Assembly: GCF_000179555.1 (NCBI RefSeq)
Contig: NZ_AECZ01000009.1
Span: forward strand, 62,001-126,000
DNA: 64,000 bases
From: Solidesulfovibrio fructosivorans JJ]
Lineage (GTDB): Bacteria > Desulfobacterota > Desulfovibrionia > Desulfovibrionales > Desulfovibrionaceae
Direction: 5' to 3'
Every line of letters starts with the position of its first letter. Position 1 is the stretch's first letter. The notes beneath the pieces were generated by a model. That model searched no databases, had not been told where the DNA came from, and was given only the letters and a program-made list of their open reading frames with translations. Both the position numbers and the translations under genes were made by a program. This document shows, in pieces, positions 2 through 16,934 of this stretch.

Positions 2-1549
2 TGGCTGACCGTGGCCGGGGCCTTGCTGGTCATGGTCTCGCTTGGGGTGGGGGAGTTTTCCAAGGCCGGCTGGTCGGGCTACGCGCCCCTGACCGAACGG
101 GCTTTCAGCCCGGGCACCGGCGTCGATTACTGGTTGTGGTCCCTCCAGATCGCCGGCGTGGGTTCGGTTCTGACCGGCGTCAACTTCCTGGTGACCGTCC
201 TTATGATGCGCGCCCCGGGACTGAGGCTCATGCGCCTGCCGCTTTTCACCTGGACGTCGATCTTCACTAACGTGCTGCTCATTTTCTCCTTCCCGGTCCT
301 GACCGTGGCCCTGGCCCTTGTCGCGCTCGACCGGTACCTGGGCATGCACTTTTTCTCCAACGGCTTCGGCGGCAACATGATGCTCTATACCAACCTCTTT
401 TGGACCTGGGGCCATCCCGAGGTGTACATCGTCATCCTGCCGGCCTTCGGCGTTTTTTCCGAAGTCGTGGCCACCTTTTCGAGCAAGCGCATCTTCGGCT
501 ACACCTCGCTCGTCTATGCCACGGCCGCCATCATGTTCCTGTCGTTCGCCGTGTGGGTGCACCACTTCTTCACCATGGGCGCGAGCGTCAACGTCAACAT
601 CTTTTTCGGCATCTCCACCATGCTCATCGCCATCCCCACAGGGGTGAAGGTCTTCAACTGGCTTTTCACGATGTATCGAGGCCGAATACGCCTGACCACG
701 CCGCTGTACTGGACCATCGGCTTTTTGACGACCTTCGTGCTCGGCGGCCTCACCGGCGTCCTCATGTCCATTCCGCCGGCCGACTACGTGGTCCACAACA
801 GCCTGTTTCTCATCGCCCACTTCCACAACATGCTGATCCCGGGCACGCTGTTCGGCTTTCTGGCCGGCTACGTCTACTGGTTCCCCAAGGCCTTTGGCTT
901 CACCCTTGACGAAACCTGGGGCAAGCGCACCTTCTGGTGCTGGTTGATCGGCTTCTACCTGGCCTTTGTGCCGCTTTACATCCTGGGTTTCATGGGCATG
1001 CCCCGGCGCCTGCAACACTATGACAACCCGGCCTGGCAACCGCTGCTCATCATCGCGGCCGTGGGCACGCTGATCATTTTATGCGGCATCGGCTGCATGC
1101 TGATGCAACTCGTCGTGAGCCTGAAAAACCGCCAGGCCAATCTGGACGTGACAGGCGATCCCTGGGACGGCCGCACCCTGGAGTGGGCCACGTCCTCGCC
1201 GCCGGCCATCTACAACTTCGCCACCATCCCCGTGGTGCACGACATCGACGCCTTCTGGGACATGAAGGAAAAGGGCATCGCCTATGCCCGGCCGGACCAT
1301 TATGAAGACATCGAGATGCCGAAGAACACCGGATACGGCTTTATCATCGGCATTCTCGCCTTTCTGTTCGGCTTCGCCATGATCTGGCACATCTGGTGGC
1401 TGGCCCTGACCGGCCTGCTCGGCATCGTCGTGGCCGTGATCGCCCGGGCCGGCGATGACGACATCCACTACGTCATCCCCGCCGCCGAGGTCGAACGCAT
1501 CGAGAACCAGCGCCGCCAAGCCATGGCGGCCGCGCCGGCGGGTTCGTAA
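2..1549 (+). CDS. cyoB: Cytochrome bo-type quinol oxidase subunit I (5' partial)
   Basis: Heme-copper oxidase catalytic subunit, an inner-membrane proton pump reducing O2 to water. The reading frame is open from the left edge, so the start lies outside. Counting from the in-frame GTG at 11, WGHPEVY puts the CuB ligand at H135 with its cross-linked Y139, HH at 184-185 are the other CuB ligands, H270 and H272 the heme ligands, and K213 the K-channel lysine. Every one is offset by 149 from the E. coli CyoB numbering I remember, so about 150 N-terminal residues (including the first low-spin heme ligand) are missing. Close wording to CyoB ([23 protein letters not shown]) and the downstream cyoC-cyoD-cyoE order favour a quinol rather than a cytochrome c oxidase, but the subunit II gene that would settle this is upstream and unseen. 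Confidence 0.93.
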
Positions 1550-1589
1550 GGACCATGCTTCCTACCGGGATCTTTTACGAGGTGACACG

Positions 1590-2204
1590 ATGACCACGGA
1601 CACAGCGACCATGACCGGGCCGGTCGGACACGGCGCCGATCACGACGCCCCGGGCCTGCACGCCCTGGGCTTCTGGCTCTATCTCATGACCGACCTGATC
1701 GTGTTTTCGGCGCTTTTCGCCACGTACGTGGTGTTGGCCCCCAACACGGCCGGCGGTCCCTCGGCCAGGGAGCTCTTCCACCTGCCCGAGGTCTTCGTCG
1801 AAACCATGCTGCTGCTGACGAGCAGCGTGGTTTTCGGCTACGCCTCGCTGGCCCTTGGGGCCGGGAAAAAAGGCCTGGGTCTGGCCGGATTGGCGCTGAC
1901 CTTCCTGCTGGGACTGGGCTTTATCGTCATGGAACTGGGCGAATTCCACAGGCTGATCCTGGCCGGGGCCGGACCGCAGCGCAGCGGGTTTCTTTCGGCC
2001 TTTTTCACGCTGGTCGGCACCCACGGCGCCCACGTGACCGTGGGGTTGCTGTGGCTGGCCGTCATGATGGGGCAGATCCTGACCAAGGGCCTCACCGTGC
2101 CCGTGCGTTCCCGTCTGGCCCGCCTGGGGATGTTCTGGCACTTCCTGGACATCATCTGGATCGGGCTTTTCACCGTCGTCTACCTGATGGGGGTCATGTC
2201 ATGA
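1590..2204 (+). CDS. cyoC: Cytochrome bo-type quinol oxidase subunit III
   Basis: Subunit III of the heme-copper oxidase, 204 residues, the same length as E. coli CyoC. Five hydrophobic segments are visible, beginning with the HALGFWLYLMTDLIVFSALF stretch near residue 25 and ending with WHFLDIIWIGLFTVVYL. The ATG at 1590 follows a GAGGTGAC ribosome site; the frame is open further upstream but that part is arginine-rich and overlaps cyoB, so it was rejected. Its stop overlaps the cyoD start, indicating translational coupling inside the oxidase operon. Confidence 0.93.
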   Translation: MTTDTATMTGPVGHGADHDAPGLHALGFWLYLMTDLIVFSALFATYVVLAPNTAGGPSARELFHLPEVFVETMLLLTSSVVFGYASLALGAGKKGLGLAGLALTFLLGLGFIVMELGEFHRLILAGAGPQRSGFLSAFFTLVGTHGAHVTVGLLWLAVMMGQILTKGLTVPVRSRLARLGMFWHFLDIIWIGLFTVVYLMGVMS

Positions 2205-2533
2205 GCCAGACGCACGCCTCCGGCGACAATGACGTCCGGGCCGGCAGCGGTTCCTTTCGGACCTACACCCTGGGCTTTGTCCTCTCCCTGGTCCTGACCG
2301 TCATCCCCTTTGCCCTGGTCATGACCGGCGCCTTGCCGCATGGTGCCACGTTGGCGTGTCTCTACGCCGCCGCCGTGATCCAGATCGTCGTCCACCTGCA
2401 CTACTTCCTCCACCTGGACAGATCCTCGGGCATGTACTGGAACATGCTGTCGCTGCTGTTCACCTTCTTCATCATGTTCCTTTTCATCGGTGGATCGTTA
2501 TGGATCATGTACAGCCTGCACTCCCGTATGTAA
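2201..2533 (+). CDS. cyoD: Cytochrome bo-type quinol oxidase subunit IV
   Basis: Small accessory subunit of the bo-type oxidase, 110 residues (E. coli CyoD is 109). It has three membrane segments, with the family-typical IQIVVHLHYFLHLD stretch in the middle and a final FLFIGGSLWIMYSLH segment. It starts in an ATGA-type overlap with cyoC and its 3' end overlaps the start of cyoE by 34 bases, so the four genes form one tightly coupled transcript. Confidence 0.92.
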   Translation: MSQTHASGDNDVRAGSGSFRTYTLGFVLSLVLTVIPFALVMTGALPHGATLACLYAAAVIQIVVHLHYFLHLDRSSGMYWNMLSLLFTFFIMFLFIGGSLWIMYSLHSRM

Positions 2534-3402
2534 GGCCATACGGCCGGCTGCGGCGGTATGTGCTGGTTGCCAAGCCCTGGATCGTCGTCGCCAACCTGAT
2601 CTCAGCGTTCGGCGGATTCGGCCTGGCCGCGAGAGGGCATCTGGAGTCGGGATTGTTGCTGGCCGTCCTGGCCGGCGTCGCCCTGGTCGTGGCCTCGGCC
2701 TGCGTCGTCAATAACGTCATCGACCGGGAAATCGACCGCAAGATGGCCAGGACCTGGAATCGGGCCCTGGCCATCGGGGCCATGTCGGGCCGGGCCGCCA
2801 TGGTCTATGCCGGGGTGCTTGGCGCGGCCGGGCTGGCCGTCCTGTGGGTCGGGACCAACGCCCTGGCCACGGGGCTTACGGTTCTGGGATTCGCCGTCTA
2901 CGTCGGGGCCTACAGTCTGGCCCTCAAGCGCATCTCGCCGTTGAGCACCCTGGTCGGGAGCCTGGCCGGCGCGACGCCGCCGCTTGCCGCCTACTGCGCC
3001 GTGAGCCAGCGTTTCGACCTCGGCGCGCTGCTCGTGTTGGCGCTTTTTTGTTCCTGGCAGATGCCGCACTCCTACGCCATCGCCATAAGCCGTTACGACG
3101 ACTACCGCGCCGCCGGCATCCCCGTGCTGCCGGTCGCTTGCGACATCGCCACCACCAAGCGGCATATCGCCGGCCATATCCTGGTCTTCATGGTGGAGGC
3201 CCAGCTGCTGACCGTATGCGGGTATGCCGGGATGCGGTTTTTCGCGCTGGCCACGGCGCTTTCCCTGGTCTGGTTCGGTCTGGCCCGCTTCGGCGCGGGC
3301 GACGACAGGCGTCAGGCCAGGGCTGTCTACGTCTTTTCCATCCTGGTCATCGTGGCGGTCAGCCTCATGCTGGCCGTGGACGCCGCGCCTATCCCTGCCT
3401 GA
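2500..3402 (+). CDS. cyoE: Protoheme IX farnesyltransferase (heme O synthase)
   Basis: UbiA-family prenyltransferase that adds a farnesyl group to heme b to make heme O, the cofactor of bo-type oxidases. About 300 residues with many membrane segments. The first aspartate-rich motif NNVIDREIDRKMARTWNR (about residue 70) and the second, YDDYRAAGIPVLPV (about residue 195), are both intact; the family uses them to bind Mg2+ and prenyl diphosphate. The ATG at 2500 lies inside cyoD. The 3' end overlaps the convergent membrane protein gene by 14 bases, and there is no obvious terminator between them. Confidence 0.93.
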   Translation: MDHVQPALPYVRPYGRLRRYVLVAKPWIVVANLISAFGGFGLAARGHLESGLLLAVLAGVALVVASACVVNNVIDREIDRKMARTWNRALAIGAMSGRAAMVYAGVLGAAGLAVLWVGTNALATGLTVLGFAVYVGAYSLALKRISPLSTLVGSLAGATPPLAAYCAVSQRFDLGALLVLALFCSWQMPHSYAIAISRYDDYRAAGIPVLPVACDIATTKRHIAGHILVFMVEAQLLTVCGYAGMRFFALATALSLVWFGLARFGAGDDRRQARAVYVFSILVIVAVSLMLAVDAAPIPA

Positions 3403-4627: not shown

Positions 4628-4860
4628 AACCACGCTCCGCGCCCGCCAGAGCCGCCAGGTTTGGGGCGGTATCTGTCCACAAAAATGGACCCACTCCGAA
4701 AGTTGAGAATTGTCGACTTTGCGCCTCGCGCCATATCCACCCACAAGGAAAACGAGAGACCGACTCGTGACACGTTGCCCGGCCCGGACGCCATGACCCG
4801 GGAGATGGGCGCTCCATGCGGCGGGATGACAAGCTCCGGCCAGACTGCTACCGCCATCCC

Positions 4861-5040
4861 ATGGAATGGATCATAGGCATTGCCCTTGGTATGGTCGTCG
4901 TCTTTGCCCTTGCGGCAGTCTTCGCATTGACGGCAAAGAGGCGCGGTGACGGGACGGTTCGGGGGTGGTTCGAGTTCGACAAGTACAAGGCCGGCGAAAA
5001 TTCTAAGCGCAGCCTCCACGATAAGACCCGATGGCGATGA
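4861..5040 (+). CDS. Possible 59-residue single-span membrane protein
   Basis: A short frame encoding one strong membrane segment (GIALGMVVVFALAAVFAL) and a basic, hydrophilic tail ending in KTRWR. It sits in the roughly 630-base stretch between the cysteine-cluster gene and the GntR gene, which has no other convincing gene. The upstream sequence has no clear ribosome site at the ATG at 4861, so this remains a tentative call based only on protein character. Confidence 0.3.
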   Translation: MEWIIGIALGMVVVFALAAVFALTAKRRGDGTVRGWFEFDKYKAGENSKRSLHDKTRWR

Positions 5041-5254
5041 CCCGGTTGCATCTGGTGGGCCGCTACGGTCGGGTACGAATTCTTCCTCCACCCTTGGCGG
5101 CCTCGCAGGAATGGGTAAAGGGTCCTGTACGGGGGGGCCAGGCGGTTGGTCCGGATGGACAAGAGAAAAGCCCGCGCGGCGGCGGCGCCAGTTTGGCGCC
5201 TCGGGCCTGTAAGTCAATTGCAGATATGGTGGGATTCTTCGAAAAAGCGCCGGG

Positions 5255-5941
5255 TCAGCGCCGCAGGCGGAGGGTGCTTTTTTGCGAAAGGATGTGCCTG
5301 ACGACGAAATTTTTCCCGTTGGGGATGTAGTCCTCCACCCACTTTTTAGCGCCCTGTACGTCGCCGGCCATGACCATCCGCGTCATCGCGCGGTGATTGG
5401 CGATTTCGTTTTGCGTGTCGTCCCGGTCGTTTTCGATGCAGGCGATAATGACTTGCAAGGTCCGCATCAGGCTTTCTTCCAGCTCGGCAAGTTTCAAACT
5501 GCCCGTAAGCCCGACCAGCGCCTTGTGATAGTTGATATGGGCATTGGCTATGGCGACCGGATCATCGAGGTTGGCCTGGGCTTCGTAGGCGACCGTGCTC
5601 TCCTCCAGGGCGCGCAACAGGCGCTCGGGCGCCGTGGGGATGCATTCGCAGGCCCTTATCTCCAGAATCTGACGCGTCAGGAAGATATCGTCGATTTCCT
5701 CGAGCGTAAGCTTGCGCACGGACGCCCCCTTGTTCGGCAGGTGCGCCACAAGCTCTTCGGTCGCCAGGATGCGCAGGGCCTCCCGCACCGAACTGCGGGA
5801 AACGCCGAGCGAATGCGACAGCGTCATCTCCTTGAGCTGGTCGCCGGGCAGAAAGGTCCCGTCGAAAATGGCGCGCCGCAATGTCTCCGCAATCATGGCC
5901 ACGCTGCTGGACTTCGCCCCTTCGGTCTCTCGGATCGTCAT
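5255..5941 (-). CDS. GntR-family transcriptional regulator, FCD subfamily
   Basis: A 228-residue repressor-type regulator. Residues about 15-75 form the GntR winged helix (LRRAIFDGTFLPGDQL, then SRSSVREALRILATEELV), and about 90-215 the all-helical FCD effector domain with its metal and ligand histidines in NAHINYHKALV and ANHRAMTRMVMAGD. AGGAAGAG precedes the ATG. It is the last gene of the minus-strand unit with the amidohydrolase, AroM-like protein and amino acid ABC transporter and most likely controls that unit through the palindromes at 10669-10693; the ligand would be a transported substrate or its breakdown product (inference). Confidence 0.92.
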   Translation of the reverse strand: MTIRETEGAKSSSVAMIAETLRRAIFDGTFLPGDQLKEMTLSHSLGVSRSSVREALRILATEELVAHLPNKGASVRKLTLEEIDDIFLTRQILEIRACECIPTAPERLLRALEESTVAYEAQANLDDPVAIANAHINYHKALVGLTGSLKLAELEESLMRTLQVIIACIENDRDDTQNEIANHRAMTRMVMAGDVQGAKKWVEDYIPNGKNFVVRHILSQKSTLRLRR

Positions 5942-5956
5942 GACTCTTCCTGGACG

Positions 5957-7210
5957 TTATTTTCCCGCTTCCCAAACGACGCGGCCCCGGGAAAGGGACA
6001 CGTCCACAAGCGGGGCGCCGATGGCCGTAGCCAGCTGGCCCGGATGTTCGCAATCGAAAATGGTCACATCGCCGCGCTTGCCCACATCCAGGGAACCCCG
6101 GTCGTGGCTCTTCCCCAAGGCGTAGGCGGCGTTGAGGGTCGCGCCGACAATGGCCTCGGCCGGGGTCAGCCTGAACCACGAGCAGGCCAGCGCAATGGTC
6201 AAGGGCAACGACGTGGCCTGAAACGACGAACAATAATCCGTGGCCACGGCGACAGGCACGTTGTTTTTGATAAAAAGCCTTGCGTTGGCTTTTTGCGCGT
6301 CAAGATAAAACTGTTCCGCCACCGGCAAGAGCACGGCGACGGTCGTGGTGGCGCCCACGGCGTTGATCTCGGCATCCGGCGTATAGGTGAGGTGGTCGGC
6401 GGAAAGCGCCCCCCCCGCGACCGCCGTGCGCCATCCCCGCGAATCGGAGGACGCATCCGCGTGGACGCGGACAGGTAATCCCAAAGAGGTCGAAATATCA
6501 ATCAGTTCTCTGGCCTGCTCGGCTGAGAAGTCGCCATTTTCACACGAAAGGTCCTGCGACTGGGCAATGCCTTGGGCAAGCACCGCCGGGAGCATCTCGT
6601 TTTTGACGACAGCGACGTATTCTTCCGCGCTCCGTCCATCCTGGGGCGCGATATGCGCGCCGAGAAACGTGCAGACGATATCCATGGCCGTATGCGAGGC
6701 GGCCTGATGCAGCAGGCGCAGCAGGCGCAGCTCCCCACGCGTATCAAGGCCGTAGCCGGACTTGACTTCAAGGGTGGTCACTCCTCCCGCCGCGATCCGC
6801 TCAAAGGCCCGGGCGACGTTGCGCAAAAGCTCGTCGTCGCCGGCCTGGCGCGTCTTGACGATGGTGGACCAGATGCCGCCGCCCTCGGCGCGAATCTCCC
6901 TGCCGTCGGCGCCTTCGAGCCGGCGCACGTACTCCCAGTGCCGGTTGCCCGCGAAAATGGGGTGCGAATGGCATTCCACAAGTCCGGGCAGCACCGTTTT
7001 GCCGGAGGCGTCCAGCACCGGGGCGTCGTCCCCGTAGGCGCGCAGCACCTCCCGCGAATCGCCCACGGCCACGATGACGCCGCCGCGAATGGCCAGCGCG
7101 CCGTCGTGGATGATGTTCAGTTCCCCTTGCCCCCGGCCCGCCCTGGGGCGCTTCGCATCCGTAACCCGCGCGAGGCTGGCCGCGTGCGCAATGGTGATAT
7201 CGCCGTTCAC
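5957..7210 (-). CDS. Imidazolonepropionase-like amidohydrolase (HutI family, divergent)
   Basis: A 417-residue amidohydrolase whose whole length follows HutI. H81 and H83 (CHSHPIFAGNR), H250, H273 (SADHL) and D325 (ATD) match the metal and catalytic positions I recall for Bacillus HutI (80, 82, 249, 272, 324), and GGGIWST and LEVKSGYGL are typical. However, the HADEI motif reads HADAS, losing the substrate-site glutamate, and the NPGSSP loop after the catalytic aspartate is replaced by CSSFQATS. No hutH, hutU or hutG is nearby. I infer hydrolysis of a related cyclic amide, not necessarily imidazolonepropionate. The GTG at 7210 has AGAGGAAG just upstream; the frame continues open to 7975 but only as an arginine-rich shadow of the next gene. 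Confidence 0.87.
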   Translation of the reverse strand: MNGDITIAHAASLARVTDAKRPRAGRGQGELNIIHDGALAIRGGVIVAVGDSREVLRAYGDDAPVLDASGKTVLPGLVECHSHPIFAGNRHWEYVRRLEGADGREIRAEGGGIWSTIVKTRQAGDDELLRNVARAFERIAAGGVTTLEVKSGYGLDTRGELRLLRLLHQAASHTAMDIVCTFLGAHIAPQDGRSAEEYVAVVKNEMLPAVLAQGIAQSQDLSCENGDFSAEQARELIDISTSLGLPVRVHADASSDSRGWRTAVAGGALSADHLTYTPDAEINAVGATTTVAVLLPVAEQFYLDAQKANARLFIKNNVPVAVATDYCSSFQATSLPLTIALACSWFRLTPAEAIVGATLNAAYALGKSHDRGSLDVGKRGDVTIFDCEHPGQLATAIGAPLVDVSLSRGRVVWEAGK

Positions 7211-7272
7211 TGCTTCCTCTTTTCCGCATCCGGCGGCGCCAGGAAAAGGCCATCCTGGGCTGGAGCGCCGGC

Positions 7273-7956
7273 TCATACGAGTTCCTGGAGAATGCGCGCC
7301 GTAATGCTCGTGGCGCTCAGGGTCGGCAGTCCGGACGTGTCGCGCACCGTCCGGCGCTGCAGCTCCGTAAACCCCATGTCGTCGAGTAAAACATAGTCCG
7401 CGCCCGCCTCCCGCGCGCGCAACGCCGCCCGGACAAGGGCCTCCCGCCCGCCGTAGGGCGAAGCCGCCGCCGTGGAAACCCGCGCCGCAGAGGAGCGCCA
7501 CTGCGCCGGCGCCGCTTCCATGTCTGACGCCGGGCCGATGACGCACAGATGCCCGTGGCCCGCCAGGGCGGCGACCACGGACCGGATGACCGTTATCGGT
7601 TCGATAAGCCTGGGGATGGCCCGCTTGAGCTCCGGAAACCGCCCTGAGCAAAGCAGCAGAAGGGCGTCGCACTCCGCTTCCAGCTTCCGTCCGGCGGCGA
7701 TAAGGCGGGGCAGCAGAAGACGCTTGGCGACAAGCACGCCCCTTACGACCCCATCCTGCTTGCGCAGGCAGGTCTCGATGCCGGATTCTCCATCCTCCGG
7801 GACCAGCCGCGCGCACTCGCCAGCGCCCAGGCCGTCCAGGGCGCCGCGTTGCCTGAAGGCGATGCGATCCCCCAGGATGGCGCGAAACGTGGGTTCGATA
7901 TCCGTGCGGGGCGCCTGCCCCAGGGTGAGTATGCCGAGAGTGATCATGTGCGTCAT
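7273..7956 (-). CDS. AroM-family protein
   Basis: About 227 residues, matching the roughly 225-residue AroM family. Recognisable are the N-terminal LGILTLGQAPRTDI strand, the central DALLLLCSGRFP segment and the C-terminal ADYVLLDDMGF motif, which corresponds to ADVIMLDCLGF in E. coli AroM. The family has no proven activity; its fold resembles the Asp/Glu/hydantoin racemase group (my inference from layout). It lies 62 bases upstream of the amidohydrolase gene and downstream of the ABC transporter genes. There is no good ribosome site; ATG 7956 and 7947 are both possible starts. Confidence 0.8.
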   Translation of the reverse strand: MTHMITLGILTLGQAPRTDIEPTFRAILGDRIAFRQRGALDGLGAGECARLVPEDGESGIETCLRKQDGVVRGVLVAKRLLLPRLIAAGRKLEAECDALLLLCSGRFPELKRAIPRLIEPITVIRSVVAALAGHGHLCVIGPASDMEAAPAQWRSSAARVSTAAASPYGGREALVRAALRAREAGADYVLLDDMGFTELQRRTVRDTSGLPTLSATSITARILQELV

Positions 7957-8028
7957 GCCTGGGAGGCCAGGACAAAGAGGAGCCACTCCCCCCTCGGGGA
8001 GTGGCTTCTTTTCGCGATGGCCGGGACC

Positions 8029-8880
8029 CTAGTTCACGGCTTTGCCATTGATGAGGGGACGCGGCAGCGCGCCGGTTTCAGCTCCCCATTTCTTGAGGAT
8101 CTTACTGTAGGTGCCGTCGGCGAAAACCTTTTGCAAGGCCGCGTACACCGCATCGCGGAGCTTGGCGTTGTCCTTGCTGAAGGCGATGCCGTAAGGATTG
8201 GATTCCAGCAGCGGCCCCACGGCCACGAAGGCGCCCTTTTGCTGCACATTGGCCCAGCCCAGGGCCTCGGGGCTGAGGGCGGAAGCCTGGGCCCGGCCCT
8301 GCAGCATCTGCATGCGCGCGGAGGCCGCGGAATCCACCGCCATGATGTTGATGCCGGGCTTGCCCTTGTCGAGCAGGTTTTCCTTGTTCCACTTCTGCAT
8401 GGTGGTCAGGTAGTCCGTGGAGGCGGACACCGCCAGGGTCTTGCCGCTCAGGTCTTCCAGGTTCTTGATTTTTCCGGCCAGCGCCTTGGTGGTGAAACAT
8501 TGGGTGCCGGAGTTGAAGTAGTCGATGAAGTCCAGGGACTTGCGACGTTCCGCGCTGTCGGACATGCCGGAAAGGACCATGTCCACGCGCTTGGTGTTGA
8601 TGGAATTGATCAACTGGTCGAAATTCTGGTCGTCAAATTCGATCTTGATGCCCAATTCCTTGGCAATGGCCTGGGCCAGTTCCACGTCGATGCCGTCCAG
8701 GGTGTCGGAGCCGGGGGCCTTGAATTCCATGGGGGGGAATATGCCGTTGACGCCGATGATGATCTTTCCGCTTTTCTGGATGGAATCGGGCAACATGTCG
8801 TGCAGCGATGCGGCAAAGGCCGTTCCGGAGAACAGCAGGGCAAAACCACACAACAACGAGGCGAGCTTTCTTTTCAGCAA
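8029..8880 (-). CDS. Polar amino acid ABC transporter, periplasmic binding protein
   Basis: A family 3 solute-binding protein of about 283 residues with a signal peptide (LKRKLASLLCGFALLFSGTAFA, cleaved before ASLHD), then the lobes starting at GKIIIGVNGIFPPMEF and the DGIDVELAQAIAKELG segment typical of polar amino acid and opine binders. I place the start at the TTG at 8880 because GGAGG lies eight bases upstream and the product then begins directly with the signal peptide; the ATG at 8904 has no ribosome site. It follows the ATPase gene in the same unit. The ligand is unknown. Confidence 0.9.
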   Translation of the reverse strand: MLKRKLASLLCGFALLFSGTAFAASLHDMLPDSIQKSGKIIIGVNGIFPPMEFKAPGSDTLDGIDVELAQAIAKELGIKIEFDDQNFDQLINSINTKRVDMVLSGMSDSAERRKSLDFIDYFNSGTQCFTTKALAGKIKNLEDLSGKTLAVSASTDYLTTMQKWNKENLLDKGKPGINIMAVDSAASARMQMLQGRAQASALSPEALGWANVQQKGAFVAVGPLLESNPYGIAFSKDNAKLRDAVYAALQKVFADGTYSKILKKWGAETGALPRPLINGKAVN

Positions 8881-8949
8881 CGTCTTTTCCTCCAAATGAT
8901 TCATGCCGCGCTTGGCAGACGGCAACCCGCGTAAAAAAACCGCAACAGC

Positions 8950-9720
8950 CTATGCGATCGCTCCAAGGAACGCCTTGGTGCGCTCGTGTCGGGGGTTTTC
9001 AAAAACCTCCGACGGAGTTCCCTCTTCCACCACGCGGCCGTGGTCCATAAGCGCCACCTTATGGGCCACGTTTTTCGCGAACTCCATTTCGTGGGTCACG
9101 ATGACCATGGTCATGCCGCTTTCGGCCAGGTCGCGCATAACGGTAAGCACCTCGCCCACAAGCTCGGGGTCCAGTGCGCTCGTCGGTTCGTCAAAGAGCA
9201 TCAGCTCGGGCTCCATGGCCAACGACCGGGCAATGGCCACGCGTTGCTGCTGTCCGCCGGAAAGTTGTTTGGGAAAACGATCCGCCCAATCCCGCAGCCC
9301 GACCTGCGTCAGGAGCGCATAGGCGCGCTGCCGCATTTTGCGGGGATCTTCCTTTTTGACGGTGACGGGGCCCTCGATGATGTTTTCCAGGACAGTCATA
9401 TGCGGGAACAGGTTGAAGTTCTGGAAAACCATGCCGATGCGTGTGCGTATTTTGCAGAGCTCTTTTTCGCTCTGCTCGTACAGCCGCCCCTTGCGTTCAT
9501 TGAATCCGATCAGCGATCCGTCGACGTAGATGCGCCCGGCATTGATCGTTTCCAGATGATTGATGCAGCGCAGGAAGGTGCTTTTTCCGGAGCCCGAGGG
9601 GCCGAGCAGGCACAGCACTTCGCCTTTTTCCACGTCGATGTTGATGCCTTTGAGGATTTCGTGGTCGCCGTACGACTTATGGACGTTGACCGTATGCAAC
9701 ATGGGGACATCCTGTCGCAT
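8950..9720 (-). CDS. Polar amino acid ABC transporter, ATP-binding protein
   Basis: A 256-residue ATPase of the GlnQ/HisP type. The Walker [11 protein letters not shown]-loop, signature [16 protein letters not shown], Walker [15 protein letters not shown] and switch histidine THE are intact. An insertion-like segment ([14 protein letters not shown]) near residue 75 is common in the polar amino acid class. ATG 9720 has GGAG seven bases upstream and lies just after the permease stop; ATG 9702 is a second possibility. The gene couples to the permease at 9723 and the binding protein at 8029. Confidence 0.93.
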
Positions 9721-9722
9721 GG

Positions 9723-10601
9723 CTAGGCTCCGCACCGTTGTCTTTTGCCGAAGGTGTTTTCCCGGAGGGTCTCCAGGAAACCGCGTTGGGTGGCAAAGGC
9801 ATGGCCGCGGGCGAAGCGCCGCTCGATACCGACCTGCACGACGCTGAGGATGGTCACGACAATCAGATACCAGCCGGTGGCGACGATAAGCAGCTCCATG
9901 ACCTTGGCATTGACGAAATAGATGATCTGGGCCTTGTGCAACAGCTCGGTGTAGGCGATGGCGCTGGCCATGGAGGACGTTTTGAGCAGGCCGATGAATT
10001 CGTTGCCGATGGGCGGCACGATAACGCGCATGGCCTGCGGCAGGACGATGCGGCGCATGGCCATAAGACGGGTCATGCCGAGGGACGTGGCGGCGTCTAT
10101 CTGGCCCTTGTCGACGGAGAGGATGCCGCCGCGCACGATTTCCGTCAGATACGCGCCCTCGTTAAGGCCCAGCCCGAGCAGGGCGGCCATGAAGGGCGTC
10201 ATCACGTCCACCATGCGGTATTGCGCGAAGCCCAGATTCACCACGGGAAAGATGAGCGCCAGATTGAACCAGATCAGCAGCTGCAAATAGACGGGGGCCC
10301 CCCGGAACAGCCAGATGTACCATCCTGAAAACATGCGGGAAACGGGGTTTTGGGAAAGGCGCATGATGGCGAAGATCACGCCCAGCGCCATACCCATGAG
10401 CATGGAGCAGGCCGTGATGAGGATGGTGTTTGCCAGTCCCTTGAGAAGCGCGGTCGAAAAAAAGAACTCCTCCACCACGGACCAGTCGATTTGGCCCACG
10501 ATGAAAGCGTTCACGATAAGTCCCATCAGGCCTATCAGAAGAATGCCGGAAACCCACCGTCCGTAATGGCGGAGAGGAATGATTTTGTCGTTGGTCACCA
10601 T
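9723..10601 (-). CDS. Polar amino acid ABC transporter, permease
   Basis: A HisM/GlnP-type membrane permease of 292 residues. Membrane segments begin near residues 18 and 55; the EAA loop that contacts the ATPase is seen in [27 protein letters not shown], followed by [15 protein letters not shown], both hallmarks of the family. MVTNDK at 10601 is preferred to the upstream start at 10679 since the extra 26 residues overlap the operator region. It is the first gene of the minus-strand unit that ends with the GntR regulator. One permease gene is present, so the channel is probably a homodimer. Confidence 0.9.
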
Positions 10602-10668
10602 GTTTTTTCCAAATCCAAAAGTCAAAAAAGCCGCTCTCCGCTTGGTCGCCGAGGGGAAACCGCAAAGA

Positions 10669-10693
10669 ATGTCCGACAATTTTTGTCGGACAA
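10669..10693. promoter_or_regulatory. Tandem GntR-type operator palindromes
   Basis: Two palindromes of the form TTGTC-N-GACAA lie side by side: ATGTCCGACAA at 10669-10679 and the perfect TTGTCGGACAA at 10683-10693, with centres 14 bases apart; together they also form a larger inverted repeat (GTCCGACAA, three T, TTGTCGGAC). FCD-type GntR proteins commonly bind TNGTNNNACNA-like sites. The pair sits just upstream of the permease gene that opens the unit encoding a GntR regulator, at the expected place for a repressor site. Confidence 0.65.
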
Positions 10694-10722
10694 TTTCTGC
10701 CCCGCGATGCGGCTGCCGTCAA
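10694..10722 (-). promoter_or_regulatory. Candidate sigma-70 promoter of the ABC/AroM/amidohydrolase unit
   Basis: On the minus strand TTGACG (10722-10717) is followed after 17 bases by CAGAAA (10699-10694), a good -35 with a poor -10. The tandem palindromes begin immediately downstream, where a bound repressor would cover the start of transcription. The poor -10 makes the exact position uncertain. Confidence 0.35.
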
Positions 10723-10807
10723 GTCAAATTACGGTGCGATGACAAATATGACAAAACCGGACGGATTCTTTTCTCGACGTGCCGGCTCGGCTCCGGCCCC
10801 GGGCGCC

Positions 10808-10856
10808 GTCAAATGAAATGGGCTGTCGCATCAAGCGACAGCCCATTTCATTTGAC
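10808..10856. repeat. Perfect 22-bp inverted repeat with 5-base loop
   Basis: Two exact 22-base arms (GTCAAATGAAATGG... and its complement) flank the loop ATCAA. It lies between the minus-strand ABC unit and the 3' end of the minus-strand outer-membrane protein gene at 10975. It could act as the terminator of that gene, but there is no T-run on either side, and the arm is longer and less GC-rich than usual for terminators. Confidence 0.85.
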
Positions 10857-10974
10857 GTCCCAGGTCCCTTTGCTCGCTCCAAGGCTGTGGCGCGACAGGG
10901 GAGGGGCGCGACGTCGTATCCCCGGCCCCTTTCCCCAAGGGATCGGGTCGGGATGCCCCGGCTGGATAAAATTC

Positions 10975-11871
10975 TTAGAACCGCTTCGTCAGCGTCAGCG
11001 TGCCAATGCTTCCCTGCGAACTGTTTTGTCCGGAGAATTCTTTTAAGAAGCGCAGGGAAACGGAAGTGGTGTACGCCGGAATGTCAAAGGCGACTTCCGG
11101 CCCGATGCCATAGATCGTCGTGCGATCATCCGTTGCGCCGCTGCCGCTGTCATCGGTCGTTTGCCAGGAGCAGTAGCCCGCGGCGCCGACCGTCATGGTC
11201 TTGTTGAAGGTTTTTCCGACACCCCATTCGAAATGGAAATCATTTCCAGGGGTAATGTTCGTTTCGTTTTGCTCCGTGTTCACTTCGTACCGGGACAGGA
11301 TGGACGCGCTCCAGGTCCTTTCCGTGTCGAAATAAACGGTTGCGCCCGCAGTGAACATCACCGTGTAAAACCCCTTGCCGGGACTAGCCGGATGATTCTT
11401 GCTGAAATAACCGGTCGGGATGTACAGGCCCGCTCCAATGGCGGCGTCATACCTGTCCCCATGCCAACTGAGAAGCAGGGGTTCAATCAGGATGTCGCCC
11501 AGGCCGAACATGTCCTCACTGGTGCGCGGGGAGGATTGCCCTGTTTTGAAGGAGCTGTCGGTATATTGAAAAGGCACGACGGCATCGAAGAGGAGATTGC
11601 CTCCAAGCACCGAAATATTCGATGAGTATATGAGACGCGTGACCTGGCAATAAACATTGAGCTTGAAGTCGTTGTTGACAATTTTATTGTTCTTGTCCCG
11701 GTACTCCGGCGCGTTGTAATAGACGGAATACTCTCTGACGTAAAAACCTTCGGGAGGCAATGTGGCCGCTTTGATCCCTTCGACGCCGTTGACATAGTGC
11801 CCGGTGCTGGCAAACGCCAAGCCGCACGATAAGGAATACACCACAAGAAAAAGAAAACATGCCCGTTTCAT
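10975..11871 (-). CDS. SphA / MetA-type outer-membrane protein
   Basis: A 298-residue exported protein: signal peptide MKRACFLFLVVYSLSCGLAFA, then HYVNGVEGIKAATLPPEGFY, the characteristic opening of the SphA-like group found in aromatic degradation clusters (MetA/SphA, Phenol_MetA_deg). The rest alternates aromatic and polar residues as in a beta barrel and ends in a terminal phenylalanine (LTLTKRF), the usual signal for outer-membrane insertion. GGAGGG precedes the ATG at 11871. Its role is probably uptake or sensing of a small hydrophobic compound (inference). The codon use is visibly lower in GC than that of its neighbours. Confidence 0.85.
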   Translation of the reverse strand: MKRACFLFLVVYSLSCGLAFASTGHYVNGVEGIKAATLPPEGFYVREYSVYYNAPEYRDKNNKIVNNDFKLNVYCQVTRLIYSSNISVLGGNLLFDAVVPFQYTDSSFKTGQSSPRTSEDMFGLGDILIEPLLLSWHGDRYDAAIGAGLYIPTGYFSKNHPASPGKGFYTVMFTAGATVYFDTERTWSASILSRYEVNTEQNETNITPGNDFHFEWGVGKTFNKTMTVGAAGYCSWQTTDDSGSGATDDRTTIYGIGPEVAFDIPAYTTSVSLRFLKEFSGQNSSQGSIGTLTLTKRF

Positions 11872-12046
11872 AAATATCCCTCCAGTGTTTTTCCGCAATA
11901 GGGAACAAGCCGTCCTCCGCTTCCCACACGACAGGCTTGTTGCCGCAATGGTCCCCTGATCCGGCGGCATTCCGACTTCGAAGCGGAATCCAAAGCGCCA
12001 TGCGCCTGCAAGCTGTGCCGTCCGCCCCCCTTGCCGGCATGCCGCC

Positions 12047-12334
12047 TCAGCCTTCGCGGAAGGCGATGCCGAACCCGCCGTTCGGGTAATGCCAAGTGAG
12101 CGCGCCGGGGCTGGCCAGGGCGCGGCAGGTGCCGCATTCCAGGCAGGCCGCGAACAAAACGCCGATGGTGCCGTCCTCGTTTTCGGAATAGACGTGGGCG
12201 GGGCACACCCGGACCAGCAATTTCCCCGTGCCGGTCTTTCGGGCGATTTCCTGGTTGACTTCTATGTGCGAGTGCTCGTCGACGACGTACGTGTTGCCCG
12301 CCAGACGTTGCGTGACATCTCCAAAGATCGTCAT
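12047..12334 (-). CDS. fixX: FixX-type ferredoxin
   Basis: A 95-residue ferredoxin-like protein that passes electrons between the ETF and the FixC quinone reductase. The cysteines CPA at about 44 and CLECGTC at about 68-74 give the one-cluster pattern of FixX/YdiT, and the RVCPAHVYSENEDG and YPNGGFGIAFREG segments are typical. It is the last gene of the fixAB-flavoprotein-fixC-fixX operon and starts 11 bases after the fixC stop. Confidence 0.92.
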   Translation of the reverse strand: MTIFGDVTQRLAGNTYVVDEHSHIEVNQEIARKTGTGKLLVRVCPAHVYSENEDGTIGVLFAACLECGTCRALASPGALTWHYPNGGFGIAFREG

Positions 12335-12345
12335 GTCCTTTCTCC

Positions 12346-13653
12346 CTAAAGCGCCCTGACGGCCTTGAGCATGTCCCCGAGGGCCGTAAGCAGCTTGATC
12401 TTCGAGCGCTTGAACGCGCTTGTCGCCGTGGCCGCGATGTGTTTGCGGGGCGTGGTGTCGCAGCTGTAGATGTCGTGGAAGATGTCGGTGAGCAGCAGGC
12501 CGTAGTCCTGGTACATGCGCGGCACTTCGAGGACGTTTGGCGCCTTGGCGTAGGTCTTCATGTCGGCGCCCACGAACGTGGCGTCGAGCTGCTTGCGATA
12601 GTCGTCCATGTCCTGCTGGCCGTAGCTGCCGCGCTTAAGCGCCTTGACGATGGTCTTGGCGGCGGCGATGCCGGAGCCGGCGGCCAGGTCCATGCCGCGG
12701 ATGGTCAGGCCGGTGTTGAGCGTGAAGCCGGCGGCGTCGCCGATGATGAGGAACCCCGGCCGGGCGAGGTCGTGGGAGGTCATGGCCGGGCCGTTTTCGA
12801 TCGTCAGGTGGCAGCCGTATTCCAGCAGCTCACCGTCGCGCAAAAGCGGCGCGATGGCCGGGTGGCCCAGAAAATTGTCGTGCACCTCGCTCGACGTGAG
12901 CCCCTTGGCCTCCAGGTCGTCGAGGCGCAGCACCACGCCGACGCTGATCGACTCCTTGTTGGTGTAGAGAAAGCCGCCGCCCGCCGCCGTCTTGGTGCAG
13001 TCGCCGACGAGGGCGTAGGCGACCCCGTCGTTGCCGGTGACGTTGAAGCGGTCCTCGATGACTTTGACGGGCAGGCCGATCACGCTTTTGACGCCGACGG
13101 CCAGGTTCTGGGCCGGCTCCTTGGCGCGGATGCCGGCCTGCTGGGCGATAAACGAATTGACGCCGTCGGCGGCGACCACCACATGGGCGTGGAGTTCGTC
13201 CTCGCCGGCCTTGACGCCGACCACCTGCCCGTTCTCGAACAGCAGGCTGTCGACCCGGATGCCCGGCATCACCATGACGCCGGCATTCTCGCATTGCTCG
13301 GCCAACCAGGCGTCCAGCTTGGCGCGCAGCACTGTCACCGCGTTGACGGGATCGCCCAGGCGCTGGTCCCAGTAGTCGACATTGAAGTGCGACGTCGGGT
13401 TGAGGAAGGAGAGCACATTGCGCGTGATGCGGCGCTCCACCGGGGCCTCCCCGACAAAATCCGGGAAGACCTGTTCCATCACCCGGCAGTAGAAGATCCC
13501 TCCCGAGAGGTTTTTTGCGCCGGGCTGCCCGCCGCGTTCGATCAAAATGACTTGCTTGCCCGCTTGCGCCAGTTGGTGGGCGCAGACGGTGCCGGCCACG
13601 CCGCCGCCGATCACGATGACGTCGGCATCGACCTCGAGTGCTTCTTCAGCCAT
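12346..13653 (-). CDS. fixC: FixC-type electron transfer flavoprotein-quinone oxidoreductase
   Basis: A 435-residue membrane-associated flavoprotein that links ETF to the quinone pool. It has the FAD-binding Rossmann motif DVIVIGGGVAGTVCAHQLAQ at residues 8-27, the conserved GAKNLSGGIFYCR stretch near 48, and GFLIIGDAAGFTLNTGLTIRGMDLA near 315, all standard in FixC/YdiS. GGAGAG precedes the ATG at 13653; the frame upstream reads through the intergenic space. FixC lacks its own cluster and depends on FixX, encoded next door. Confidence 0.92.
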   Translation of the reverse strand: MAEEALEVDADVIVIGGGVAGTVCAHQLAQAGKQVILIERGGQPGAKNLSGGIFYCRVMEQVFPDFVGEAPVERRITRNVLSFLNPTSHFNVDYWDQRLGDPVNAVTVLRAKLDAWLAEQCENAGVMVMPGIRVDSLLFENGQVVGVKAGEDELHAHVVVAADGVNSFIAQQAGIRAKEPAQNLAVGVKSVIGLPVKVIEDRFNVTGNDGVAYALVGDCTKTAAGGGFLYTNKESISVGVVLRLDDLEAKGLTSSEVHDNFLGHPAIAPLLRDGELLEYGCHLTIENGPAMTSHDLARPGFLIIGDAAGFTLNTGLTIRGMDLAAGSGIAAAKTIVKALKRGSYGQQDMDDYRKQLDATFVGADMKTYAKAPNVLEVPRMYQDYGLLLTDIFHDIYSCDTTPRKHIAATATSAFKRSKIKLLTALGDMLKAVRAL

Positions 13654-13740
13654 CAGGTTTCTCTCCCCCAAAACCGTCATTGAAACGGGTGGGCCGGGCC
13701 GCCCGGTTTCGCGCGGCCCGGCTTTCAAACGCATACGGAA

Positions 13741-15213
13741 TCAGAGCGCGCCGGCGTTGACTTTCTCGGCGATGTCGTCGGCCGACAGCCAGCCCGATGT
13801 CAGGGCGAAGCCGTTGGCCGAGCCCGGAATCGTCAGTTGGTAGCTTTCGCCGAACAGGCCGCCCGCGTCGCAACCGACGCTGTAGAGGCCTGGAATGACC
13901 CCACCATTGGCGTCGAGGACCTGCATGTATTCATTGATCTTGATGGCGCCGACGCTGACCATGATGCCGGGTTCCATCTTGATGGCGTAAAAGGGGCCAC
14001 GATTGCAGGGAAAGAGATACTTCGGGTCCTTGCGGTACTTCTTGTCCTCGCCGGCACTGACGTAGCCGTTGTACTCCCCGACTTCCGAGCGCAGCACCTC
14101 TGGAGCGACACCGATCTTGCCGGCCAGCGCCTCGAGGGTCTCTCCCTTGTAGACGTTGGTGCAGCTGTCGTTTGCGGCGTCAGCCTCAAGTTCCCCGGGC
14201 AGATGGATCAGTTTTTCGTAGTTGCGGACGTAGATGCCGAGACCGACAAAGTTGCCCTTGTTGACCAGCCTGTCGATGAAGTCCTGATCGAGGATGCACC
14301 AGAACATCGCGTCCGGCAGGCCCACCATGAGGTCGCCGGCATTGCCGAAGTTGAGCCCCACGGTCTCGTTGGTGAAACGCCGGCCGTGCTTGTCGACCCA
14401 TAACGAGGGCTGCATGCCGGCGTTGTTGACATGGCTGGTGACGGTTTTGTCACGCATCAGAGGAAAGAACACCATGGTGCCGATATTGGAGTTCTCGACG
14501 GCGCCGACCTCCTGCATCATCTTGAGGCCGTCGCCGGTGTTCCCTTTCCCGCCGGCATTGATGACGTGCTCGCCGATCTTGAACTTGCCGTACTTGTTGA
14601 TCAGCGCGGGATTGGCGGCGTAGCCGCCGGAGCCGACCACGACGGCCCTGGCCCCGAGCCTGACGGTCTCGCCGTCGGCGTCCTTGGCGACCACGCCCTT
14701 GATCTTGCCGTCCTCGCCCCGCAGGATCCTGGTCGCGGGGGTGGACAGGAAGATGTCGACGCCGCGGCGGCGGGCGTCCGCTTCGAGCAGCTCGAGCAGA
14801 TGCGCGACCTCGCCTTCGGGCAGGTGCCAGGTGACGAGTTCGCCGGGCTGCTCGGGCGCGGTGATGGTGACGTCCTCATAGACGGCTCCCACCTCGTCAC
14901 GCATTTTCGTGATGGTGGTGGCGGCGTTCTCGACGAAGCGGTTTACCAGCGCCGAATCGCAGCGCCAGTGCGAGTAGTCGATGTAGGCCGTGTAGGCTTC
15001 TTGCTTGGTGACCGTGATGCCGCGTTTTTTCTGTTCGTCGGACTCGAAGGCCGCGTGGCCCTCGGCAAAGGCCGAGCTGCCGCCGAGTTGCTCTTCCTTT
15101 TCGAGCACGGCGCAGGTCAGGCCGTTTTTGGCGGCCTGCACGGCGGCCGACAGGCCCGAGCCGCCGCCGCCGATCACGATGACGTCGTAGTGGGAATCGA
15201 ACTCTTCAGCCAT
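13741..15213 (-). CDS. Fumarate-reductase-fold FAD-dependent dehydrogenase of unknown substrate
   Basis: A 490-residue FAD_binding_2 protein: dinucleotide motif DVIVIGGGGSGLSAAVQ (10-26), GSSAFAEG (45-52), GSGGYAANPALI (195-205), GRRFTNE (277-283) and PGLYSVGCDAGGLFGE (441-456). It has no heme, FMN or export domain, like TcuA- or KstD-type enzymes. Compared with flavocytochrome c fumarate reductase as I recall it, the proton-donor arginine after the RFxNE motif aligns to L287, the PGVHH histidines align to M418 and V419, and the GANR arginine aligns to Y458. Fumarate is therefore an unlikely substrate. Its place between fixB and fixC suggests it exchanges electrons with this ETF. GGAGGAG precedes the ATG. 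Confidence 0.88.
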   Translation of the reverse strand: MAEEFDSHYDVIVIGGGGSGLSAAVQAAKNGLTCAVLEKEEQLGGSSAFAEGHAAFESDEQKKRGITVTKQEAYTAYIDYSHWRCDSALVNRFVENAATTITKMRDEVGAVYEDVTITAPEQPGELVTWHLPEGEVAHLLELLEADARRRGVDIFLSTPATRILRGEDGKIKGVVAKDADGETVRLGARAVVVGSGGYAANPALINKYGKFKIGEHVINAGGKGNTGDGLKMMQEVGAVENSNIGTMVFFPLMRDKTVTSHVNNAGMQPSLWVDKHGRRFTNETVGLNFGNAGDLMVGLPDAMFWCILDQDFIDRLVNKGNFVGLGIYVRNYEKLIHLPGELEADAANDSCTNVYKGETLEALAGKIGVAPEVLRSEVGEYNGYVSAGEDKKYRKDPKYLFPCNRGPFYAIKMEPGIMVSVGAIKINEYMQVLDANGGVIPGLYSVGCDAGGLFGESYQLTIPGSANGFALTSGWLSADDIAEKVNAGAL

Positions 15214-15247
15214 GTCACTTCTCCTCCTGGCTTGGGTTGACCGGACG

Positions 15248-16162
15248 TTATTTGCCAAGGGCCGCCCGCAGGGCGGGGACGACCTCGTAGAGATCGCCCA
15301 CGATGCCGAAGTCGGCGGCCTTGAAGATCGGCGCGTCGGGGTCGTTGTTGATGCCGACGACGACCTTGGTCCCCCGGATGCCTTCCAGGTGTTGCGGGGC
15401 TCCCTGGATGCCGACGGCGATGTAGAGCCGGGGCGTGATATGCTGGCCGGACCGGCCCACATAGCGCTCCTTTTCGACCCAGCCCAGGTCGTCGGCGACG
15501 GGCATGCTGCAGCCGATTTCGGCGCCGAGGGCCGTGGCGAGGCCCTGGATGAGCGTCAGGTCGTCCTTTTTCTTCAGACCGCGTCCGACCGAGACGACCA
15601 CGCTGGCCTTGGTGATGCCCGCATCGGCGCCGGCGGCCGGTTCGGTCTTCTCGAGCCTGATGTCGGCGACGCCATCGGCGGCGACCGTCTCGATGGGAGC
15701 CGGGGAGCAGGGCGTCCGCTCGACATCGCCTCCGGCATAGAAGGTGACCACGGGCCCGGCGGACGCGATCGTCTCGATGACCCGGCCGTCCAGGTCCGCG
15801 CGCTCCAAAAGGGTGGTCTCGCCAGCGGCTGACAGCTTCAGGCCGCGCGGGATCATGGCCGCGCCGAGCTTCACCGCTGTCGCGCCGGCAAGGACGCGTC
15901 CCGCGGCGGAAGCGCTGGCGACGACCGCCCCGGGCGCGTCGGCCGCGATCAGACGGGCGACCGGGCCGGCGTAGGCTTCGGCCGGACGCCCCTGTTCCGT
16001 CTCGACCCACTTCACCGCGTCGGGGCCGGCGGCCGCGGCGGCCTCGGCCAGGGCGCGCGGTCCGATAACGGCCGCGATGACCTTCCCGCCCAGTCCCTTG
16101 GCCATGGCCACCAGGGCGGGCGTCTGCTTTTCCTCCGTCACGATGATCCATGCCTGGCTCAT
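15248..16162 (-). CDS. fixB: Electron transfer flavoprotein alpha subunit (FixB)
   Basis: A 304-residue ETF alpha subunit. The N-terminal half is a variable alpha/beta domain; the C-terminal FAD domain carries GRGLKKKDDLTLIQGLATALGAEIG (about 192-216), ERYVGRSGQHITPRLYIAVGIQGAPQH (about 230-256) and INNDPDAPIFKAADFGIVGD (about 272-291), the family signature. It lacks an N-terminal ferredoxin extension. GGAGAGG precedes the ATG. It is encoded just after fixA and pairs with it; the flavoprotein and FixC/FixX are the likely partners. Confidence 0.93.
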   Translation of the reverse strand: MSQAWIIVTEEKQTPALVAMAKGLGGKVIAAVIGPRALAEAAAAAGPDAVKWVETEQGRPAEAYAGPVARLIAADAPGAVVASASAAGRVLAGATAVKLGAAMIPRGLKLSAAGETTLLERADLDGRVIETIASAGPVVTFYAGGDVERTPCSPAPIETVAADGVADIRLEKTEPAAGADAGITKASVVVSVGRGLKKKDDLTLIQGLATALGAEIGCSMPVADDLGWVEKERYVGRSGQHITPRLYIAVGIQGAPQHLEGIRGTKVVVGINNDPDAPIFKAADFGIVGDLYEVVPALRAALGK

Positions 16163-16205
16163 TTGGCCTCTCCTTTCTCGCTGTCCGCGTAAGTGCCCAT
16201 CATGC

Positions 16206-16934
16206 TCACAACACCCCTTCGCCCCGCAGGGCTTCGACGAGCTGCGCGGCCGCCGCGGGAGGCGCGCCCTCGAAGAGACGGGCGGCGGTGGTTTCGGGCA
16301 ATCTGGTGGCCCGGCTCGAAACCGCCTCGGCTCCACCGGCCCCGATGTCGGCGAGGGTCAGCTTGCTGACGGGCCGCTTGCGGGCCATCAGCTGCTCCTT
16401 CATGCCGGGGACTTTTTTCTCGGGGGAGGCGGCGCTGACCGCGACGACGGCTGGAGCGGCAAGGCTTACGGTCTCCACGTCCTTGCCCAGCTTGCGGGTG
16501 ATGCGCACGCGCCCGTCGACGGCTTCGGCGCTGTCGACGTGGGCGACGGCCGGCCAGCCCAGCAGTCCGGCGAGGGCCGCCGGGACGCCGGCGTATTCCT
16601 CGGAGTCGCCGATCGTGACGATGTCCACGTCGCCGATCTTTCTGACGGTGGCGGCAATGACCGCCGCCGTGGCCGCATTGTCGACGAGGTTGGGCGCGTC
16701 GGCGATCGAGACGGCCTCCTTCACGCCGCGGGCCAGCACCCAGCTGGCGTCGCCGTCGCCGATGGTCAGGCCGATGATCTCTCCCCCGTCCGCAATGGCC
16801 TTGGCGGCCTCGAGCGCGGCGAAATCGTCCTCGCCGGGGCTCATCTTCGCGTTGCGCCAATCCACGGATCCGTCGTTTCTGACGGCCGCGTCCTTGGCAT
16901 CCCTGGCCCACTTGTAAACAATGACTGTTTTCAT
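16206..16934 (-). CDS. fixA: Electron transfer flavoprotein beta subunit (FixA)
   Basis: A 242-residue ETF beta subunit, first gene of the fix operon. It opens with KTVIVYKWARDAKDA and has the nucleotide-binding GLTIGDGDASWVLARGVKEA segment near residue 52, and VSLAAPAVVAVSAASPE near 160. Bifurcating FixA proteins bind a second FAD; whether this one does cannot be judged by eye, and the protein is short (about 250-260 is usual). ATG 16934 is chosen over ATG 16952 because it gives the standard N-terminus, with GGAGG 13 bases upstream. Confidence 0.9.
   Translation of the reverse strand: MKTVIVYKWARDAKDAAVRNDGSVDWRNAKMSPGEDDFAALEAAKAIADGGEIIGLTIGDGDASWVLARGVKEAVSIADAPNLVDNAATAAVIAATVRKIGDVDIVTIGDSEEYAGVPAALAGLLGWPAVAHVDSAEAVDGRVRITRKLGKDVETVSLAAPAVVAVSAASPEKKVPGMKEQLMARKRPVSKLTLADIGAGGAEAVSSRATRLPETTAARLFEGAPPAAAAQLVEALRGEGVL

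Follow-up and report, generated by a model that had tools for sequence, protein, structure and literature searches.

A HutI-like amidohydrolase from a six-gene cassette with an AroM family protein and an amino-acid-type importer probably opens a hydantoin-like ring acid and not imidazolonepropionate

Imidazolonepropionase (HutI) is captured by the NCBI equivalog model TIGR01224 and by solved structures (2bb0/2g3f, 2oof/2q09, 2gok, 2puz), among which entry 2q09 presumably holds a hydantoin-propionate inhibitor. Ring hydrolases that stand beside a racemase-group protein and an importer are found in hydantoin utilisation systems (racemase, hydantoinase, carbamoylase) and in the ergothioneine-related ErtD/ErtE setting. 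The locus described here resembles these systems in outline. Its hydrolase, however, is HutI-like and does not belong to the hydantoinase/dihydroorotase subfamily, and no carbamoylase is encoded in the gene cluster. The cluster also contains a full-length member of the AroM family (PF07302), which is described in parts of one published study as experimentally uncharacterised, as nearly identical in predicted structure to hydantoin and Glu/Asp racemases, and, in cyclodipeptide-oxidase clusters, as enriched alongside genes for hydantoin racemase and DUF917 proteins (PMC11055893). For Synergistota, a second article notes hutI in the vicinity of genes resembling GrdB (PMC10838667). A cassette combining a HutI-like enzyme, AroM and an ABC transporter was not reported among the literature matches listed, which came from queries not naming such a cassette and from a coverage that leaves out most subscription journals.

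The stretch of DNA that we analysed (hereafter the window) comprises 64,000 nucleotides of a contig of Solidesulfovibrio fructosivorans JJ. The open reading frame at positions 5957 to 7210, singled out by the initial annotation, is real and its coordinates are correct; we add that it lies on the minus strand, where it starts with GTG and encodes a protein of 417 amino acids. This protein scores 345.6 bits with TIGR01224, above the cut-off of 298.15, and aligns with profile positions 2-377 of 377. The HutI model is its sole full-length match above a cut-off, with a guanine deaminase model (46.6 bits) and an Xaa-Pro dipeptidase model (55.5 bits) as secondary weak matches. TIGR01224 was matched at E ≤ 1e-20 by all 18 members of a mixed alignment, and its cut-off may not discriminate, because an odd HutI from Desulforhopalus singaporensis (discussed at the end) passes it as well with 346.0 bits.

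Alignment with the B. subtilis HutI (2bb0; phmmer) places H81, H83, H250, H273 and D325 of the window protein opposite H80, H82, H249, H272 and D324, respectively, just as the initial annotation had it when it matched these residues to the HutI metal and catalytic positions. Six further sites in this alignment concern residues that we take to be substrate contacts in HutI: at R89, Y152 and H185 the window protein has the same residues (R90, Y153 and H186), and Y102, E252 and N326-P327 are replaced by G103, A253 and C327-S328. The kept zinc ligands, His273 and Asp325, together with Arg90, Tyr153, His186 and the full-length homology, make up the likeness to HutI, while the replaced sites set the window protein apart from it. 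Three segments of the minus strand, with coordinates derived from residue numbers, carry these features: the stretch from H81 to Gly103 (6902..6970), which includes H83, R90, H91-W92 and the lost Tyr102 position; the HADAS motif at residues 250-254 (6449..6463); and residues 325-332, in which the catalytic Asp325 is followed by Tyr-Cys-Ser-Ser-Phe-Gln-Ala (6215..6238). The replacement of the NPGSSP loop behind the catalytic aspartate by CSSFQATS had been recognised correctly before, and the loss of Tyr102 is a further change. The exchange of HADEI for HADAS, also noted previously, is present in the window protein, but the HADE motif taken as its point of reference is not universal in HutI, since the E252 column of 46 HutI-like sequences contains Glu in 25, Gln in 20 and Ala in one.

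We collected relatives of the window protein by a contig scan, which yielded three loci from Desulfospira joergensenii, Desulforhopalus singaporensis and a Holophagaceae metagenome-assembled genome of another phylum (L007, L008 and L009), and by whole-genome searches of the order and the phylum. With the own genome counted, 10 of 199 genomes of the order matched at E ≤ 1e-60 and 43 of 395 genomes of the phylum at E ≤ 1e-40; among 396 genomes of Acidobacteriota a single one contained a clade member, namely the one already known, and a scan of viral sequences gave nothing beyond three short N-terminal matches. Scoring was limited to the top candidates of each genome (four in the phylum and Acidobacteriota searches, up to nine in the order search), so that a clade member may have escaped detection, although this is unlikely. 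The sequences fall into two groups with a clean gap between them: eight proteins from two phyla (the window protein, those of genomes G115, G099, G108 and G113, and L007 to L009), in which identity to the window protein ranges over 64-95% for the other members and pairwise identity within the group over 62-95%, and all remaining sequences, none of which exceeds 41% identity to the window protein.

The eight clade sequences were aligned with the 46 HutI-like ones, of which 35 stem from whole genomes, four from the genomes of L007 to L009 and seven from annotated plasmid records in which hutI stands beside at least one other hut gene; one locus cut by a contig end (L021) and 13 HutI-like matches without a locus were kept out of the alignment and the tree. 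All eight clade members retain the metal and catalytic residues as well as Arg90 and Tyr153. The Tyr102 position is Tyr in 45 of the 46 HutI-like sequences and Gly (seven) or Ser (one) in the clade, the E252 position is Ala in every clade member, and the Asn-Pro pair, present in 46/46 HutI-like sequences, is Cys-Ser in 8/8. Residues invariant only in the clade include H91, W92, W260, E299, Q300, Y302, F330, Q331 and W345, and in addition R107, D227, S254 and Y326. In the phylogenetic tree, the clade forms one side of a branch supported by 100/100, its stem measuring 1.37 changes per column. The separation from HutI for which the initial annotation had suggested a phylogeny is thus borne out in part, as a distinct clade on a long stem, but the family root is not fixed (in the outgroup-rooting tree, the outgroup branches reached about 5, three intended outgroup sequences were omitted and four long HutI-like sequences were dropped), so that the clade may have arisen either beside HutI, as its sister group, or inside it. 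By alignment and tree, the window protein is placed in a distinct amidohydrolase subfamily that is new within a known superfamily.

The earlier remark that no histidine-utilisation genes are near extends to the entire S. fructosivorans genome (rated 100% complete), in which the models for hutH (TIGR01225) and hutU (TIGR01228) found no match at E ≤ 0.001. Profile searches of genomes G115, G099, G108 and G113, all rated at least 99% complete, did not detect hutH or hutU either, which brings the carrier genomes without a match for either gene to five of eight. Of 47 other genomes with HutI-like genes, 37 gave a match to hutH and 41 to hutU, and 45 gave a match to one or both; the two genomes with neither are 85% and 89% complete. 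A Fisher test on the absence of both genes (5/5 versus 2/47) gave p = 8e-6, a value that ignores the relatedness of the genomes. The genomes of the remaining three carriers (G585, G586 and G587, corresponding to L007, L008 and L009) possess hutH and hutU, and each of them encodes at least one further HutI-like protein that is 34-39% identical to the window protein; their clade copies are located 206 kb away from these genes or on a contig without hutH and hutU. A match to hutH or hutU lies no more than 15 kb away from 38 of 52 other HutI-like genes, a count that does not include genome G368, which was not part of the hutH/hutU search, but from none of the eight clade loci. At the level of gene content, these distributions show that the clade enzyme is independent of the genes for histidine breakdown.

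We considered and rejected the identity of the window protein as the HutI imidazolonepropionase on three counts: its residues, the content of the carrier genomes and the further HutI-like copies. Despite passing the NCBI HutI model, it is almost certainly not HutI. The clade hence represents a coherent subfamily that the standard model would misname, and genomes would therefore be credited with a histidine-breakdown step that they seem not to have. In contrast to HutI, the clade enzymes have no hut context and are tied to a cassette with AroM and an ABC transporter.

This cassette comprises six closely packed genes, all on the minus strand of the window. It begins with the permease gene of an amino-acid-type ABC transporter (9723..10679; BPD_transp_1, 67.6 bits), followed by the gene for the cognate ATPase (8950..9735), whose closest models (EhuA, TcyN, GlnQ) all remain below their cut-offs, a periplasmic substrate-binding protein of family 3 (8029..8925; SBP_bac_3, 116.1 bits), the AroM family protein (7273..7986; 159.3 bits, profile positions 1-219 of 219), the HutI-like hydrolase and, as the last gene, a GntR/FCD transcriptional regulator (5255..5941; Pfam GntR 56 bits, FCD 53.6 bits). 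The same six genes occur in the same order at all eight loci. No carbamoylase or other product-processing enzyme, and no hydantoinase of the cyclic-amidohydrolase subfamily, is found among them. A scan of positions 4700 to 12400 for promoters and terminators gave one promoter-like site (mean of shuffled sequences, 2.1) and 14 terminator-like sites (9.0 in shuffled sequences, sd 3.4).

Outside the cassette, the flanks of the loci differ. When ten other genes of the window were compared with the flanks of the other loci, a LysR-type regulator was the sole match (34% identity over 71 residues in L052, 26% in L054), which we take as a family-level resemblance; the flanks compared extended 2.8-6.1 kb on the permease side and 0.9-8.7 kb on the regulator side, so that the EtfB gene and the LysR-type gene are located at or beyond the reach of most of them. 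The cassette is found in two phyla and its surroundings differ, which points to mobility as one unit.

Two neighbouring features of the window were considered as partners of the cassette, and the comparison of loci supported neither. The FAD reductase, FixC and ETF genes (12346-16970) were not found in the compared flanks of the other seven loci, including the G115 locus with its 95% identical hydrolase, and the same holds for the gene of an outer-membrane protein at 10975-11970. The former genes form a single run. Besides EtfA and a second ETF subunit, they encode a FixC-like protein and an FAD protein of the vinylphenol-reductase/flavocytochrome type (355.4 bits, cut-off 600), and this run is an electron-transfer-flavoprotein-fed reductase cluster adjoining the cassette. 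Near the start of the window (11-3402), we observed genes for COX1 (cytochrome/quinol oxidase subunit I, 381.7 bits) and for a UbiA-type prenyltransferase (170.3 bits), with further oxidase-like open reading frames recognised by eye between them; the nearest named relatives of this genome are sulfate reducers. In the Holophagaceae genome, an argininosuccinate lyase gene (argH, 527.4 bits; L009:1348-2778) lies directly upstream of the cassette permease gene, and it may be an extra pathway gene or a housekeeping copy.

The importer offers weak hints about the type of ligand. The best solved matches of the binding protein are AncQR and glutamine-binding proteins. In GlnBP, we presume that an Arg holds the carboxylate of the ligand and an Asp its alpha-ammonium group; the cassette protein keeps this Arg and seems to have lost the Asp, at a site where the alignment contains a gap and near which an invariant Glu220 could substitute for the GlnBP Asp. 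The ATPase scores best with the model of the ectoine importer protein EhuA (320.4 bits, cut-off 345.4).

For the AroM protein, phmmer found no solved relative at E ≤ 0.1. A comparison of an AroM profile (14 sequences) with one of the PF01177 Asp/Glu/hydantoin racemases (24 sequences) gave an hhalign probability of 94.7 and, for one template, an E value of 5.6e-8; in this alignment the two catalytic-cysteine positions coincide. At the profile level, AroM is thus a remote relative of the Asp/Glu/hydantoin racemases. All eight cassette AroM proteins contain the first cysteine (Cys113); unlike those racemases, seven of them carry Asp at the second catalytic-cysteine position, where only L009 has Cys, and racemase activity is therefore not assured.

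AroM is present in eight of the 395 genomes sampled from the phylum (own genome counted), and in five of the seven other AroM loci it has a hydantoin- or cyclic-amide-type neighbour. Genes resembling S-methyl-thiohydantoin desulfurase (DUF917/PF06032) are found near AroM in G494 and G262, and a gene of the Asp/Glu racemase family in G368. Upstream of AroM in G056, at a distance of 18 bases as judged from the open reading frames called, lies a gene resembling dihydroorotase (TIGR00857, 333.9 bits, cut-off 279.05). In G229, AroM is accompanied by a cyclic amidohydrolase closest to the hydantoin-5-propionate amidohydrolase ErtD (508.6 bits, cut-off 650) and by an M20 protein that is related to ErtE (345.8 bits, cut-off 520) and falls into TIGR01879, the hydantoinase/carbamoylase family (342.2 bits, cut-off 204); the two recall the ergothioneine pair ErtD/ErtE. 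The ErtD-like protein groups with allantoinase and dihydroorotase models and hence with an amidohydrolase subfamily other than that of the HutI-like enzyme. No neighbour of the hydantoin or cyclic-amide type was seen among the translated open reading frames of the G547 locus, which is cut by a contig end, and of the G232 locus. In G229, the AroM, ErtD-like and ErtE-like genes form one run (L114:317-8154) with a branched-chain-type ABC transporter recognised by eye, which likely constitutes a hydantoin-acid pathway. With one importer, one AroM and one hydrolase, the cassette of the window represents a compact setting in which to find a function for the uncharacterised AroM family.

That the window protein has a substrate different from that of HutI, as the initial annotation proposed, remains the best reading. 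All eight clade members, from two phyla, share the altered positions; five of the eight carriers gave no match to hutH or hutU; extra HutI-like copies are present in the other three; and AroM and the amino-acid-type ABC transporter accompany the enzyme in the six-gene cassette at every locus. The cassette probably imports and opens a ring-shaped, hydantoin-like acid. The substrate would be a chiral cyclic amide or ureide acid, possibly one resembling hydantoin-5-propionate. In this scheme, the importer would bring in a small carboxylate whose alpha-nitrogen is perhaps locked in a ring; AroM, as a one-cysteine member of the racemase group, would interconvert the stereoisomers of the substrate or isomerise it otherwise; and the HutI-like enzyme would cut the ring amide bond with zinc-bound water, most likely in a five-membered cyclic ureide, amide or amidine acid. 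Enzymes encoded outside the cassette would finish the ring-opened product, and the GntR/FCD protein would regulate the cassette.

The pocket can be argued along similar lines. Since Arg90 and Tyr153 are kept, the carboxylate of the substrate would be held as in HutI; since Glu252 and Asn326 are lost, the ring would present a different edge, and their removal might open space for an additional group, for example the C2 oxygen of hydantoins. Hydantoin carries an oxygen where imidazolone carries a hydrogen, imidazolones having no C2 oxygen, and would fit the altered ring edge of the pocket. AlphaFold2 models of the hydrolase were unusable (mean pLDDT 38.0 for the sequence alone, 45.9 with four rows), and this argument therefore builds on the alignment and on the presumed HutI contacts.

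How well do other functions account for the same observations? An imidazolonepropionase with a relaxed active site, supplied with imidazolonepropionate from outside, would agree with the TIGR01224 score and with the complete conservation of the metal and catalytic residues; we nevertheless consider it very improbable, because Tyr102, Glu/Gln252 and Asn-Pro are replaced throughout the clade, three carrier genomes already contain other HutI-like genes and the five others have no hutH or hutU match. Imidazolonepropionate is, moreover, chemically unstable, so that a dedicated importer for it would be odd. It is likewise improbable that the enzyme opens no ring and is instead a superfamily member of the deaminase, iminohydrolase or carboxypeptidase type: the low guanine deaminase and Xaa-Pro dipeptidase scores would fit, but they stand against the full-length HutI match, the only one above a cut-off, and against the retention of part of the HutI residues that we take to hold the imidazolone acid.

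A different ring substrate handled by the same cassette logic, for instance a lactam acid, an ectoine- or creatinine-type cyclic amidine, a hydroimidazolone amino acid or a modified cyclic dipeptide, has a real chance of being correct, albeit one clearly short of even. The preference of the ATPase for the EhuA model points in this direction, as do the first nine of the clade-only residues listed above, which suggest a pocket unlike that of HutI, and the link of AroM to cyclodipeptide-oxidase-like clusters drawn in parts of the published study (PMC11055893). Against this, the conserved Arg90 and Tyr153 favour a carboxylate placed as in HutI, insofar as the presumed contacts hold, and the AroM contexts with named enzymes are of the hydantoin or dihydroorotase type. 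On balance, we give an even chance to the combined proposal, drawn from sequence comparisons, that the six genes form a self-contained cassette for scavenging in which the window protein serves as the hydrolase, that this protein is no imidazolonepropionase, and that its substrate is a cyclic ureide, amide or amidine acid, the first candidate being hydantoin-5-propionate or a closely related compound. More tentatively, and with a good deal less confidence, the hydantoin-type reading can be extended to a HutI-derived hydrolase of hydantoin acids (or of similar cyclic ureide or amidine acids) that would cooperate with an AroM racemase; the uptake cassette encoding both would be of an undescribed kind, spread by horizontal transfer mainly among anaerobes. 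If true, this would represent a second evolutionary route to hydantoinase activity and the first function for the AroM family.

The odd HutI of D. singaporensis mentioned above is a second unusual enzyme of this type in that organism. The protein of 450 amino acids has Gln at the Tyr102 column and HTDAY in place of HADE, and it keeps the Asn-Pro pair. Its gene lies in a run (L117:7254-11890, on contig C32 of G586) with genes for a cyclodeaminase (FTCD_C), FtcD, a branched-chain-type ABC transporter and a urocanase-like protein, for which the model of S-methyl thiourocanate hydratase gives a higher score (646.5, cut-off 880) than the hutU model does (628.2); this run may represent a modified-urocanate pathway.
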